DNA from: Thermophilibacter provencensis
GTDB taxonomy: Bacteria; Actinomycetota; Coriobacteriia; Coriobacteriales; Atopobiaceae
Length of the DNA: 64,000 bases
Direction: 5' to 3'
Assembly: GCF_900128445.1 (NCBI RefSeq)
Contig: NZ_LT671417.1
Span: 1,350,769 to 1,414,768, forward strand
Below, one piece after another: positions 30,734 to 37,866 of this stretch. The position numbers and the translations under genes were made by a program. Below the pieces are notes generated by a model that searched no databases, was not told the DNA's origin, and worked only from the letters and a program-made list of their open reading frames with translations. How positions within the stretch are numbered: the first letter of the stretch is position 1; every line of letters starts with the position of its first letter.

Positions 30734-34095
<3,362 letters not shown>

Positions 34096-34101
34096 CGGCG
34101 C

Positions 34102-34153
34102 CCCGTGCCACGGGGACGGAGGTATTGTCACCGCTCCGTCCCCGTGGCACGGG
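34102..34153. repeat. REP of the RAYT-linked type, after ligA
   Basis: Left arm 34102-34121 and right arm 34134-34153 pair perfectly over 20 bp (CCCGTGCCACGGGGACGGAG and complement). The loop GTATTGTCACC-like sequence matches the loops of the two REPs flanking the transposase at 35049-35831, including GGGGACGGAG, TTGTCACCGC and CTCCGTCCCC. Confidence 0.85.
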
Positions 34154-34218
34154 CGGGCCGCCAGGGACGGGGCGTCCGCAGCCCCTCCGGCTCCTGCGTC
34201 CCTGCGAGGAGGTGTTCG

Positions 34219-35406
34219 ATGAACGTTCTCACGCGCATCAGGATGGGGGAGGGCCTCTCGGACGGCGAGCGCGCCCTCGCCCAGGCTCTTCTCGCCGACC
34301 CGGAGCGCGCCCTAGGGGAGAGCGCCAAGCAGCTCGTCCGCCGGGCTCACGTCTCGCAGGCGACGGTCTATCGCCTCTGCGAGAAGCTCGGGTGCTCGGG
34401 GCTCTCGGACCTTCGGGTCCGGATCGCGTCAGCGCTCCCGGCCTTCCGAGGGGAGAGCGCGGGCGTCGACGTTAACTTTCCCGTCCGCGCGGGGCAGGGC
34501 GGCCGCGAGGTGATGGGTGCCATCGAGCGCGACCTCGCCCAGACGCTTGCGGCGACGGCGAACGTGCTCGACCCCTGCGAGCTCGACCGCGCGGCGGCGC
34601 TCGTGCTGTCCGCGGGCCGCGTCTTCGTGCTCGCCACGGCGGGCAACGTGGCGTTTGCCCAGAACTTTCGCTTCCAGATGGCCGAGATAGGCCGCGTGGT
34701 CGTCGTCCCTGTGGACGAGTACGAGCAGCGTCTCGTCGCGTCGTCGGCGGGCGAGGGGGACGTGGTGATCCTGGTCTCGTTCGGCGGCCGCGGGTTCGTG
34801 GCCCCGTCGGCCGCCGAGCTGCTCTCGCGGCGCGGCGTGCCGGTGGTGCTCGTTGCATCTGCGGGGGCCACCCCTCTCGACCACCTTGCGGAGGTCAAGC
34901 TGGCGCTCTCTCCCCAGGAGGACCACGTGCGCAAGGTCTCCCCGTTCGCCACGGGGGCGTCCCTGCTCTACGTGCTCGACGCGCTCTTCGCACGCGTCTT
35001 CGTCGAGGACTTCGACGGCAACCTCGTGACACGGGGACGGAGGAGTTGTCACCGCTCCGTCCCCGCGGCACGCGCGCGCACCCGCGAGACGATTCCGCGG
35101 GACACCCCGGTGATGCGCTCGATCTGCCGCACGGAAATGCGGCAGGACAGCAGCTTCCTCAGCGCCTCGTCGCGCCTTGGCCTGGGCAGCGACACGACCT
35201 CCCTCGGGTGCATGCCGCCCAGCAGCGATCGCGCGAGGAGCGTTGCCTCCTCGTCCCTGAGCGGCCGTCGGTCGTCGTCGACGTCGATGCACCGCTCGCC
35301 CGTCCCCGCCTCGCCGTGGAGCTGCTCGAACGCGTCGACGCCCCCGAGAAGGGAGAGCACCGTCTCGCAGCTCGTCAGGCCAACCGGCTCCGAGAGCCCC
35401 AGGTAG
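34219..35406 (+). CDS. RpiR-type regulator with SIS domain, C-terminus replaced by read-through of inserted DNA
   Basis: From ATG 34219 (GAGGAGGTG upstream), residues 1-75 form the RpiR helix-turn-helix (LGESAKQLVRRAHVSQATVY). Residues 110-260 form a SIS sugar-phosphate-binding domain (RVFVLATAGNVAFAQNFRFQ; DVVILVSFGGRG). Native sequence stops at about residue 270 (FVEDFDGNLV), where a REP begins at 35026. The frame then passes through the REP and antisense through the transposase, adding about 125 foreign residues before TGA at 35406. RpiR proteins are about 280 residues, so only the last 10-15 were lost; activity may survive. The sugar phosphate sensed is unknown. Confidence 0.8.
   Translation: MNVLTRIRMGEGLSDGERALAQALLADPERALGESAKQLVRRAHVSQATVYRLCEKLGCSGLSDLRVRIASALPAFRGESAGVDVNFPVRAGQGGREVMGAIERDLAQTLAATANVLDPCELDRAAALVLSAGRVFVLATAGNVAFAQNFRFQMAEIGRVVVVPVDEYEQRLVASSAGEGDVVILVSFGGRGFVAPSAAELLSRRGVPVVLVASAGATPLDHLAEVKLALSPQEDHVRKVSPFATGASLLYVLDALFARVFVEDFDGNLVTRGRRSCHRSVPAARARTRETIPRDTPVMRSICRTEMRQDSSFLSASSRLGLGSDTTSLGCMPPSSDRARSVASSSLSGRRSSSTSMHRSPVPASPWSCSNASTPPRRESTVSQLVRPTGSESPR
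35026..35071. repeat. REP at the 3' side of the transposase
   Basis: Arms 35026-35042 and 35055-35071 pair over 17 positions with two mismatches, around the loop GAGTTGTCACCG. The transposase stop codon (35051-35049) is inside this loop, and the native RpiR frame ends at its left edge. Confidence 0.85.
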
Positions 35407-35831
35407 GCCCGATAGCTGCTCCAGCGATAGTCGCACGTTCTGCTCAGCCCGCCTGCAACAGGGTTGCGGTGGATGTAGCGCACGACCGTGAGCAGGTAGG
35501 CGTCCGTCTCAACGGGCTCGCTCCTGAACCTGCCCTGGAACAGGTGGCCCGTGCGGTCGTGACGCCTGTTGAAGTAGAGCGCGTAGTCGGAGCCGACGGA
35601 GCGCATGGTCGCGGAGAGCTCGTTGAGGGGCATCCTCAGGAGGAGGTGCACGTGGTTGTTCATGAGGCACCAGGCGAGGGTCTCCCCGTCTCGCGATGCG
35701 AGCTCGTCGCGCAGCGCCGAGAGGAAGTACGTTCGGTCGGCGTCGTCCTCGAAGATGTCCTGCCTGCCGACCCCGCGACAGACGACGTGGTAGATCTCTG
35801 ACTCTGCCTGCTTCCTCGGCGTGCGCGCCAT
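35049..35831 (-). CDS. REP-associated tyrosine transposase (Y1_Tnp domain, IS200-like)
   Basis: This 260-residue Y1 transposase-family protein has the HUH metal motif in WCLMNNHVHLLLRMPL and the catalytic Tyr in the helix DAYLLTVVRYIHRNPVAGGL. The RAYT signature DRTGHLFQGRFRSEPVETDA and DYRWSSYRAYLG are also present. Residues beyond about 190 carry a helix-turn-helix-like C-terminal domain (IRQIERITGVSRGIVSRVRA with V). These enzymes nick and join single-stranded DNA at REP hairpins. It starts 78 bases inside the right REP; the last codons and stop come from the left REP. The start ATG has GAGGAGGGCCC upstream. Confidence 0.92.
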   Translation of the reverse strand: MARTPRKQAESEIYHVVCRGVGRQDIFEDDADRTYFLSALRDELASRDGETLAWCLMNNHVHLLLRMPLNELSATMRSVGSDYALYFNRRHDRTGHLFQGRFRSEPVETDAYLLTVVRYIHRNPVAGGLSRTCDYRWSSYRAYLGLSEPVGLTSCETVLSLLGGVDAFEQLHGEAGTGERCIDVDDDRRPLRDEEATLLARSLLGGMHPREVVSLPRPRRDEALRKLLSCRISVRQIERITGVSRGIVSRVRARAAGTER

Positions 35832-35908
35832 GGGCCCTCCTCAGAATATGAAGTATGCGGTGTGTAGCTTGTTCCCAGCCAGGGGGCGCCGCAATCCGAG
35901 GGCCGCGC

Positions 35909-35946
35909 CAGGGGGACGGAGCGGTGACAACTCCTCCGTCCCCCTG
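35909..35946. repeat. REP at the 5' side of the transposase
   Basis: CAGGGGGACGGAG (35909-35921) and CTCCGTCCCCCTG (35934-35946) form a perfect 13-bp stem around the loop CGGTGACAACTC-like sequence. It has the same core as the 35026 copy but in the opposite orientation. Confidence 0.88.
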
Positions 35947-36060
35947 ACACGCCCCTCCCGTCGAGAGGGGCAGGGGATGCCCCCGGGCGAGAAAAACCTC
36001 CAAAGTGGGTGCGCTCGCCTCCCCCTGCTGGTATCCTCGCCCAATGGGAAAGGAGACCGC

Positions 36061-36900
36061 ATGCTTGCCGACTACCACGTCCACACCAGCTTCTCGGATG
36101 ACTCGGCCTACCCGCTGCGTCAGGTGGCGCTCGACGCCGTGAGGCTCAATCTCGACGAGATCTGCTTCACCGAGCACGTCGACTATGGGGTAAAGCCCGA
36201 GTGGAACCAGCCGGAGGGGGCCCGCTTCGAGGACGGTCGCCCGGTCACCAACTGCCCGTACGCCCCGTACCTCGACGAGCTCGAGCGCACGCGAGAGGAG
36301 CTCGGTGATCGCATCACGCTGCGCGCGGGCCTCGAGCTCGGCGTCCAGACCTCGACGGTCGGACGGAACCACGCCCTCGTGAGGACGCTCGGAGACCGTC
36401 TCGACTTCGTCATCTGCTCCATCCATCAGGTGGGCGACCTCGAGTTCTGGAACGGGGACTTCCAGCGCGGTCGCTCGCAGGAGGAGATCAACTGCGCCTA
36501 CTACGAGGAGCTGCTCGGCGTCGTGGAGTGCTTCCGAGACTACTCGGTCCTCGGGCACCTCGACCTCATCCGCCGCTACGACCCGTTCGGCGACTATCCC
36601 TTCGAGTGCGTGCGGGACGTCGTGGCCGAGATCTTGCGCCGCGTCATCGACGACGGCAAGGGCATCGAGGTCAACACCTCGGGCATGCGCTACGGGCTCG
36701 GCGACTTCCAGCCCTCCCGCCAGGTCCTCGAGCTCTATCGCGACCTCGGGGGGACGGTCGTCACCGTGGGCTCGGACTCACACCGGCCCGAGCACCTGGG
36801 CTCCTACCTGCGCCTCGCCTACCGCGAGCTCAGGGAGCTGGGCTTCTCGAGCGTCTGGACCTTCGAGCGGGGGGAGGCATCCCCGCGACGGCTCCCCTGA
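36061..36900 (+). CDS. PHP-domain histidinol-phosphatase family protein (HisK/HisJ-like)
   Basis: This 279-residue protein has the PHP metal-binding signature MLADYHVHTSFSDDS at the N-terminus, FTEHVDYG, the Glu in RAGLELGVQ, the His in CSIHQVGDLEF, GHLDLIRRYDPFGDYP, and VTVGSDSHRPEHLG at the end. This is a full set of PHP ligands. It probably hydrolyses histidinol phosphate, but related PHP phosphatases act on other phosphoesters and no his genes are near. It starts right after AAAGGAGACCGC. It converges with the AraC gene, and a REP fills the gap. Confidence 0.88.
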   Translation: MLADYHVHTSFSDDSAYPLRQVALDAVRLNLDEICFTEHVDYGVKPEWNQPEGARFEDGRPVTNCPYAPYLDELERTREELGDRITLRAGLELGVQTSTVGRNHALVRTLGDRLDFVICSIHQVGDLEFWNGDFQRGRSQEEINCAYYEELLGVVECFRDYSVLGHLDLIRRYDPFGDYPFECVRDVVAEILRRVIDDGKGIEVNTSGMRYGLGDFQPSRQVLELYRDLGGTVVTVGSDSHRPEHLGSYLRLAYRELRELGFSSVWTFERGEASPRRLP

Positions 36901-36915
36901 CGGCCGAGGGGGGGT

Positions 36916-36975
36916 GTGACAGGGGGACGGAGCGGTGACAACTCCCCCGTCCCCCCGTCACCGTCACCCTGTCAC
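36916..36975. repeat. REP of the RAYT-linked type between convergent genes
   Basis: GTGACAGGGGGACGG (36916-36930) pairs with CCGTCCCCCCGTCAC (36947-36961) with one mismatch. An alternative outer stem uses CCCTGTCAC (36967-36975). The inner GGGGACGGAGCGGTGACAAC matches the right-hand REP of the transposase in sequence and orientation. The AraC stop codon (36966-36964) lies inside the element. Confidence 0.85.
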
Positions 36976-37866
36976 GCGGGCGTTCTCGCGCCTCCAGTCG
37001 CGCGGGGGCATCCCGAAGACCCCCTTGAAGGCGCGCGAGAAGTGCAGCTGGTTGGGATAGCCCACGGCGCGTCCGACCTCGCTCACGGGAAGGGCCGTGA
37101 GCTTGAGGAGCTCCGTGGCCTTGGACATGCGGTAGCCGATGAGGTACTGCTGAGGCGACTTGCCCGTCGCCTGCTTGAACACCTTGCCGAAGTAGCTCCG
37201 GTTAAGGCCGGTCCTCCTGGCAATGTCCTCGACAGAGATGTCCGACTGGTAGTTCTCCTTCACGAAGTCGATGGCCTCGCGGATGTAGAAGCCCTGGATC
37301 TTGCTCGGCGCCTGCTCGGCCTCGCGCGCGACGGAGCGAAGGAGGTAGTCGAAGAAGAGGTAGGTGTGCCCGATGAGGTGCAGGGCGGAGGCGTCACGGT
37401 TTGAGATGAGGTGGCGCATCTCCTCGACCATCCTGTCGCGCAGCTCGCTCGAGAGCGAGCGGTAGACGGGGGAGGAATCGGTGAGTCCGGCCTGCTCGAG
37501 CTCGTCTCTCACGTGGATGCCGTCGAACTCCACCCAAATGTACTCCCAGGGGTCGTCGAGGTCCGCCACGTAGGTGTTCACCTGGTTGGGGAAGATAAGG
37601 AAACCCTCGCCCTCGGAGAGGCGGTGGTCGCTCTTGACGCCCCCCTCGTCGCTCGACATGAGCAGCCCACGCCCGGAGATGATGTAGTGGAAGAGGAAGT
37701 GGCTGCGTCGCGCGGGACCGAAGGCGTGGCCCGGCTCGCAGGCCTCGCGCCCGTACTGGTAGGGCATGAGGTCGACGTAGTGGGCGTTCGGGAAGGTCGA
37801 GAACTCGAGCTCGTTGGTCGGCATCATCGCCTCCGGTGTCCTGGTCTCGGAGCGTGGGATCCGCAT
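36964..37866 (-). CDS. AraC family regulator of the alpha-galactoside operon (MsmR/RafR-like)
   Basis: This 300-residue activator has an N-terminal cupin-type sugar-binding domain (SHFLFHYIISGRGLLMSSDE; LIFPNQVNTYVADLDDPWEY). The C-terminal double helix-turn-helix contains SDISVEDIARRTGLNRSYFG, KVFKQATGKSPQQYLIGYRM and VGRAVGYPNQLHFSRAFKGV. Domain order and neighbours match MsmR/RafR-type activators of raffinose and melibiose operons. It is divergent from msmK and the CUT1 importer. A LacI-type 12-bp palindrome and a TGGTA-N7-TACCA dyad lie in the AT-rich region between them. Its last codons and stop are inside a REP. Confidence 0.88.
   Translation of the reverse strand: MRIPRSETRTPEAMMPTNELEFSTFPNAHYVDLMPYQYGREACEPGHAFGPARRSHFLFHYIISGRGLLMSSDEGGVKSDHRLSEGEGFLIFPNQVNTYVADLDDPWEYIWVEFDGIHVRDELEQAGLTDSSPVYRSLSSELRDRMVEEMRHLISNRDASALHLIGHTYLFFDYLLRSVAREAEQAPSKIQGFYIREAIDFVKENYQSDISVEDIARRTGLNRSYFGKVFKQATGKSPQQYLIGYRMSKATELLKLTALPVSEVGRAVGYPNQLHFSRAFKGVFGMPPRDWRRENARVTG

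Follow-up and report, generated by a model that had tools for sequence, protein, structure and literature searches.

Comparative evidence for relocation of a REP-bracketed RAYT transposase gene in Thermophilibacter provencensis

REP-associated tyrosine transposases (RAYTs), the Y1 enzymes that accompany repetitive extragenic palindromes (REPs), occur in described systems that resemble the unit considered here, a rayt gene bracketed by two inverted REPs in a 64,000-nt stretch of Thermophilibacter provencensis DNA (C3:1350769-1414768, hereafter the window) from a genome of 2.63 Mb (G000). The TIRtrons (Di Nocera et al., 2013; PMC3733652) likewise contain a RAYT-like Y1 transposase (TIRYT) between inverted repeats that are not of the GTAG type; their repeats form modest genomic families, are arranged as dimers or clusters, and in some cases carry GGGGWSAS, and repeats that overlap the transposase gene at its 3' end were already annotated there ('3'ov'). 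The window repeat carries GGGGACGG, one base from GGGGWSAS. Unlike the TIRtrons as presented in the text of that paper, the present repeat is a palindrome with an 18-bp stem, for which this comparison documents the polarity of insertion and empty sites; a word search of the paper's main text for Actinobacteria, Olsenella, Eggerthella, Slackia, and Coriobacter- gave no hit. Twenty of 26 TIRYTs fall in TnpA_REP subclass 2.1, which corresponds to RAYT group 1 (PMC6006769) and combines an HUH-Y1 core with a C-terminal helix-turn-helix-like extension. This extension is weakly matched in the window RAYT, the tail of which alone gave an HTH_28 match at E = 0.026 (15.1 bits vs. a cut-off of 25). PMC6006769 reports that subclass 2.1 genes have no REP-like sequences nearby and that class 2 genes give no evidence of being mobile, whereas palindromic REPs flank rayt here and the locus differs between relatives.

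In the gammaproteobacterial RAYT/REP systems, or REPtrons (Nunvar et al., 2010; PMC2817692), two inverted REPs also flank the RAYT, cognate REPs are distributed genome-wide and form doublets, and RAYT and REP change together. Unlike these systems, the window unit lacks the GT(A/G)G head, its NP(L/V)(R/K)xG motif is altered, and its REPs occupy 28 places rather than the usual >100; furthermore, orthologous rayt genes remained in place in that study. IS200/IS605 elements share the Y1_Tnp domain and palindromic ends with the window unit. However, the window RAYT gave a weak score of 16.8 bits with the NCBIfam model for IS200 (cut-off, 55), and window-type repeats far outnumber the gene. RAYTs are described as vertically inherited genes that do not copy themselves (PMC8049555). 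Among the titles and abstract openings that were searched, none described a RAYT from Coriobacteriia or an empty site for any RAYT, and no claim of priority is made.

The window unit fits the TIRYT/TIRtron type best and is not a new system. It is probably a REPtron/TIRtron in which a group-1-like RAYT (TnpA_REP subclass 2.1, 'TIRYT') lies between two inverted cognate REPs. Comparison among relatives provides evidence that a rayt gene relocated, for which a 2018 survey found none; the other notable trait is that REPs abut or supply stop codons. The local order was ligA (+), REP1, rpiR (+), REP2, rayt (-), REP3, PHP (+), REP4, and araC (-). An initial annotation of this DNA had described a Y1 transposase with an HUH motif between inverted REPs that share a 32-nt core, the left of which supplies the last codons and TGA of the transposase and marks with its edge the break point in the RpiR gene, and each of these points was borne out. 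The HUH motif lies within NNHVHLLL, the cores of REP2 and REP3 are identical and inverted, the TGA (35049-35051) lies inside REP2, and RpiR codon 269 ends at 35025, where the REP model begins, and codon 270 is REP.

The RpiR reading frame remained open to 35406; the gene has therefore lost its tail and contains no stop codon near the REP. All 11 relatives with an rpiR 3' end harbored an intact tail of 19-25 residues beyond the position of G000 codon 269. A synteny search with a fused four-gene query over the 31 genomes of the genus provided loci from 20 relatives and from G029 (of 30 other genomes in the genus), three of which stop at the region or contain it incompletely, and the four-gene comparison identified ligA, rpiR, PHP, and araC as old neighbors in the genus. 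In the 10 fetched relatives in which rpiR and PHP are adjacent, no gap between them contained a RAYT (two RAYT queries, E ≤ 1e-3) or a match to the G000-type REP model (E ≤ 1); for three of them (G006, G008, and G020), the rpiR match was limited to the 3' part of the gene. Because the relatives keep the RpiR tail and a gap that is empty of RAYT and G000-type REP, the RAYT-REP unit is a derived insertion specific to the G000 lineage among the genomes compared.

Among the 22 genomes at this locus, a RAYT was found in G000 and G029 only, at different places. The G029 RAYT has ligA on one side and araC on the other, and neither rpiR nor PHP had a match in the G029 genome at E ≤ 1e-35. The comparison with G029 prompted the idea of REP-delimited gene cassettes with rpiR and PHP as cargo, which was rejected because both genes are old neighbors of ligA and araC. 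A ligA+araC tree of 22 genomes grouped G000, G012, and G018 with a support of 0.99 and G000 with G012 with a support of 0.70. G012 and G018, the nearest to G000 in this tree, were without a RAYT between rpiR and PHP; the RAYT event is thus younger than the split of these three genomes. The initial annotation had proposed a movable or recently moved unit, to be checked by a genome-wide core count and a comparison of RpiR loci. The core proved to be present elsewhere (24 copies) and the arrangement not to be common to the relatives, which agrees with a lineage-specific insertion. No date can be put on 'recent': the closest RAYT has 61% identity, and matched cores also occur in REP pairs that require no joint movement.

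Y1_Tnp was the sole Pfam match of the window RAYT at E ≤ 0.001 (E = 2e-13, 50.9 bits vs. a cut-off of 23). N-H-x-H and RYI were conserved in the alignment, and the Tyr of RYI would by analogy be the catalytic Tyr. The best NCBIfam match was REP_Tyr_transpos with 69.6 bits, under the curated cut-off of 80, and the RAYTs of two relatives obtained 68.4 and 75.3 bits on the same model. A PDB sequence search with the window RAYT returned no match at E up to 0.1. The nearest RAYT among the 59 relatives searched was that of G029, and G000 contained three more RAYT-like loci that were 38-48% identical to the window RAYT, one of which was split across two frames.

The REP consensus, CGTGACAGGGGGACGGAGGnnTTGTCACCGCTCCGTCCCCCTGTCACG, consists of an 18-bp stem and a 12-nt loop; it starts with CGTGACAG, without a GTAG/GTGG head. 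The cores of REP1 and REP4 are two bases and one base off the REP2/REP3 core, respectively. The window contained four core matches with ≤3 mismatches vs. none in 100 shuffles, and the same threshold gave the 24 matches in the G000 genome (reversed control, 0), where the REP covariance model matched 28 places at E < 1e-4. At least one match of this model (E ≤ 0.01) was present in 26 of the 30 other genomes of the genus. As single-stranded DNA, the consensus copy folded at -24 kcal/mol (z = -8.4) and REP2 itself at -18.5 (z = -4.4). In an alignment of 23 of the 24 copies (192706 was excluded due to an indel), the outer arms belonged to the stem, with pairs 5-44 and 8-41 varying with compensation in six and seven copies; stem pairing was found in 93% of cells, and the covariation score exceeded 500 of 500 shuffles. 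No excess over shuffles was seen for a second possible pairing, between TGTCAC in the loop and the outer GTGACA. The REPs of G029 and G000 differed in arms and loop together. Among REP copies <2.5 kb apart, the variable loop triplet matched in seven of 10 adjacent pairs (1.1 expected, p = 5e-6); one solitary copy, 93054, entered this test with a wrong triplet, but is in no pair. Matched neighboring loops were considered and rejected as proof of joint movement. Local homogenization of neighboring loops is as likely as joint movement because, at site J1324, a left REP is found at the corresponding position of G012 and G018, where its loops are different.

REP edges were unevenly positioned relative to genes. 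The stop codon was at a distance of -5 to +3 nt for 14 of the 31 edges that face the 3' end of a gene, and none of the 23 facing a 5' end was nearer than 18 nt; these counts are based on gene calls by a codon-usage script, have no formal null, and exclude two gene-spanning edges (rpiR and ATP-grasp). At site F720, the gene for an iron-sulphur-like protein (by eye) has a G000-specific REP where its final 11 codons would be, and this REP supplies the TGA; the gene end is unbroken in G012 and G018. At four of the 11 sites comparable in both of these genomes (A93, D471, F720, and L1422), only G000 had a REP, and the model matched neither G012 nor G018. A circularly permuted ATP-grasp gene (L112, C3:189730-190524) was also seen to end at the REP at C3:190432, at about 196 of 332 profile positions (~60%).

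The window RAYT and those of seven relatives form one group with 51-64% identity (92% for the G001/G011 pair), the members of which occupy several positions. The RAYTs of G019, G001, and G011 are at one common locus, those of G006, G021, and G022 are elsewhere in the same broad neighborhood, and the ligA-araC interval holds those of G029 and G000. Colinearity between G006 and G019 extends over 11 genes that are 80-97% identical, and the four genes beside the two gaps in question are 94, 95, 95, and 88% identical. Their RAYTs, which are 52% identical, are located in different gaps, and each gap is RAYT-free in the other genome, the counterpart RAYT-free gaps being ~245 and ~330 nt long. Exact junctions were unreadable because these gaps contain other repeats. 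The group's RAYTs thus appear either to move or to be replaced. By eye, the repeats in the empty gaps (L131 4250-4640 and L132 13400-13850) are of the GTTGTGTACAC and GGGTATGTACACC types.

Matched inverted flank repeats exceeded all 100 mononucleotide shuffles at 31 of 32 RAYT loci of the order, namely those fetched as loci, several of which are close orthologues. The flank-repeat type of G001 and G011 numbered 59 copies in the former genome, 53 in the latter, and none in the eight others searched, and that of G006 had 21 copies in G006, four in G019, three in G022, and none in seven others. For both of these types, the only two tested besides that of G000, the RAYT stands next to the repeat that is abundant in its own genome. 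The pattern GGG(G)[AT]C[AGT] was found on either strand in 27 of 31 RAYT flank repeats (31 of the 32 loci, with repeat ends trimmed by hand), the arms of which differed; this pattern is loose and was counted without a chance control. Reciprocal filled and empty RAYT sites and genome-private repeats make two open questions testable in one genus, namely, whether RAYTs are self-mobile today and how RAYT/REP specificity co-changes.

The insertion may be the result of transposition of the unit by its own RAYT enzyme. In such a process, the HUH-Y1 enzyme would recognize the single-stranded REP hairpin, cut at the foot of the hairpin, and move REPs singly, in pairs, and at times together with the RAYT as a complete unit; landing would be preferred at gene 3' ends, where the terminal GTGACA of the REP often abuts or supplies the stop codon. 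An extended form of this proposal, which is put forward tentatively, is that group-1-like RAYT units of Coriobacteriia are still mobile, that each has private hairpin arms as an identity tag around a shared GGGGAC, and that the end-TGA replaces the host stop upon landing at gene 3' ends, thus softening the damage.

Several observations weigh against a mobile RAYT-REP unit. Homology to the G018 empty site resumes to the right of REP3, ~75 nt before PHP, but the junctions are not those of a clean insertion, as ~110 nt of this empty site have no counterpart in G000. A remnant of the RpiR tail to the right of REP3, sought with 11 relatives, was above the shuffled 95% level in two, tied with it in two, and below it in seven. 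The window RAYT contains NPVAGG in place of the NP(V/L)(R/K)xG that is found in seven of seven others of its group, and the clade of eight RAYTs is only moderately supported (82/84). Double-change pairs in the REP stem numbered 3 vs. 3.1 in shuffles, with no excess, and pair types behaved likewise. G018 and G012 carry many such REPs but no RAYT that is >50% identical; REPs can thus outlive or lack a RAYT. Six of the 11 comparable sites contained a palindrome in all three genomes (C450, E632, H1197, J1324 left, K1343 left, and N2363), and another (M2184) was common to G000 and G018. Most comparable REP sites are therefore older than the split of G000, G012, and G018, and many old REPs may have been kept as 3'-end hairpins. 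At M2184 (L126, G000 C3:2184562-2184622; L181), G000 and G018 have exactly the same 65-nt gap, REP included, the flanking protein ends being 99-100% identical, and the gap differs in G012, which has no REP match there; a recent exchange is possible.

Exchange of this kind leads to a different origin of the locus, which is rather unlikely, in which a REP first entered rpiR and REP-RAYT-REP was then recombined in by REP-mediated homologous recombination or horizontal replacement. The G000 genome offers 48-nt repeats of one type at scattered positions, the M2184 gap suggests that exchange occurs, and the low identity of the RAYTs in the near-identical hosts G006 and G019 resembles replacement. 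However, the rpiR-PHP gap contains no REP of the G000 type in any of the 10 relatives, and the first REP insertion inside rpiR would still need a mechanism. In addition, 48 nt is short for RecA recombination.

The edge counts could also reflect selection rather than insertion preference if REPs were kept as terminators or mRNA-end hairpins, an explanation that we regard as doubtful. It accords with the proximity of 3'-facing, but not 5'-facing, edges to gene ends and with the six same-place palindromes in G000, G012, and G018, the sequences of which have diverged. On the other hand, the REP consensus is without a T-run, and the REPs that shorten proteins (rpiR, F720, and the ATP-grasp gene) are hard to explain as selected terminators. 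Retention of hairpins is moreover compatible with mobility and not exclusive of it.

At a second RAYT locus, the position was kept in the seven genomes compared and RAYT and repeats diverged together; stable and relocating RAYTs thus coexist. By eye, this locus (L026, L054, and L044 vs. L043, L047, L049, and L046) lies between ABC-ATPase-like and NAD-synthase-like genes and is occupied, depending on the genome, by one of two RAYT clades that differ in their repeat arms (CGTGCAAAAG or TGATTCAAAAG), an in-place co-change of enzyme and repeat. That the window RAYT is a domesticated gene, inherited vertically at a fixed locus with an incidental RpiR junction, would agree with this second locus and with the general literature view (PMC8049555), but is very improbable, as syntenic relatives of the window locus show an empty site and an intact RpiR, and it is contradicted for the group by the reciprocal gaps in G006 and G019.

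Table 1. Positions of the RAYT-REP unit and surrounding features in the window.
Feature	Position	Strand	Remarks
rayt	35049..35831	-	Y1/HUH transposase, 260 aa; TGA and last residues encoded by REP2
REP2, left bracket	35025..35072	+	Covariance model; outer edge is the RpiR break point
REP3, right bracket	35904..35951	-	Covariance model; 32-nt core is that of REP2, inverted
REP1	34104..34151	+	Covariance model; between ligA and rpiR
REP4	36915..36962	-	Covariance model; between PHP and araC; araC stop codon 1 nt from edge
rpiR-family regulator	34219..35025	+	269 native codons retained; C-terminal 19-25 aa of relatives absent
PHP/HisJ-like gene	36061..36900	+	Right neighbor; ~75 nt upstream align with the G018 empty site
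ligA	31948..34095	+	Syntenic anchor; named from sequence by eye
araC-family regulator	36964..37827	-	Syntenic anchor; named from sequence by eye

The surroundings of the unit also vary within the genus. A tyrosine-phosphatase-like gene of ~800 bp seems, by eye, to be placed between ligA and rpiR/PHP in several relatives and is missing from 34096-34218 of the G000 window, where REP1 sits. The orientation of the PHP/HisJ-like gene differs among relatives, being, for example, + in G018, G012, and G024 and - in G010, G007, G019, and G030.
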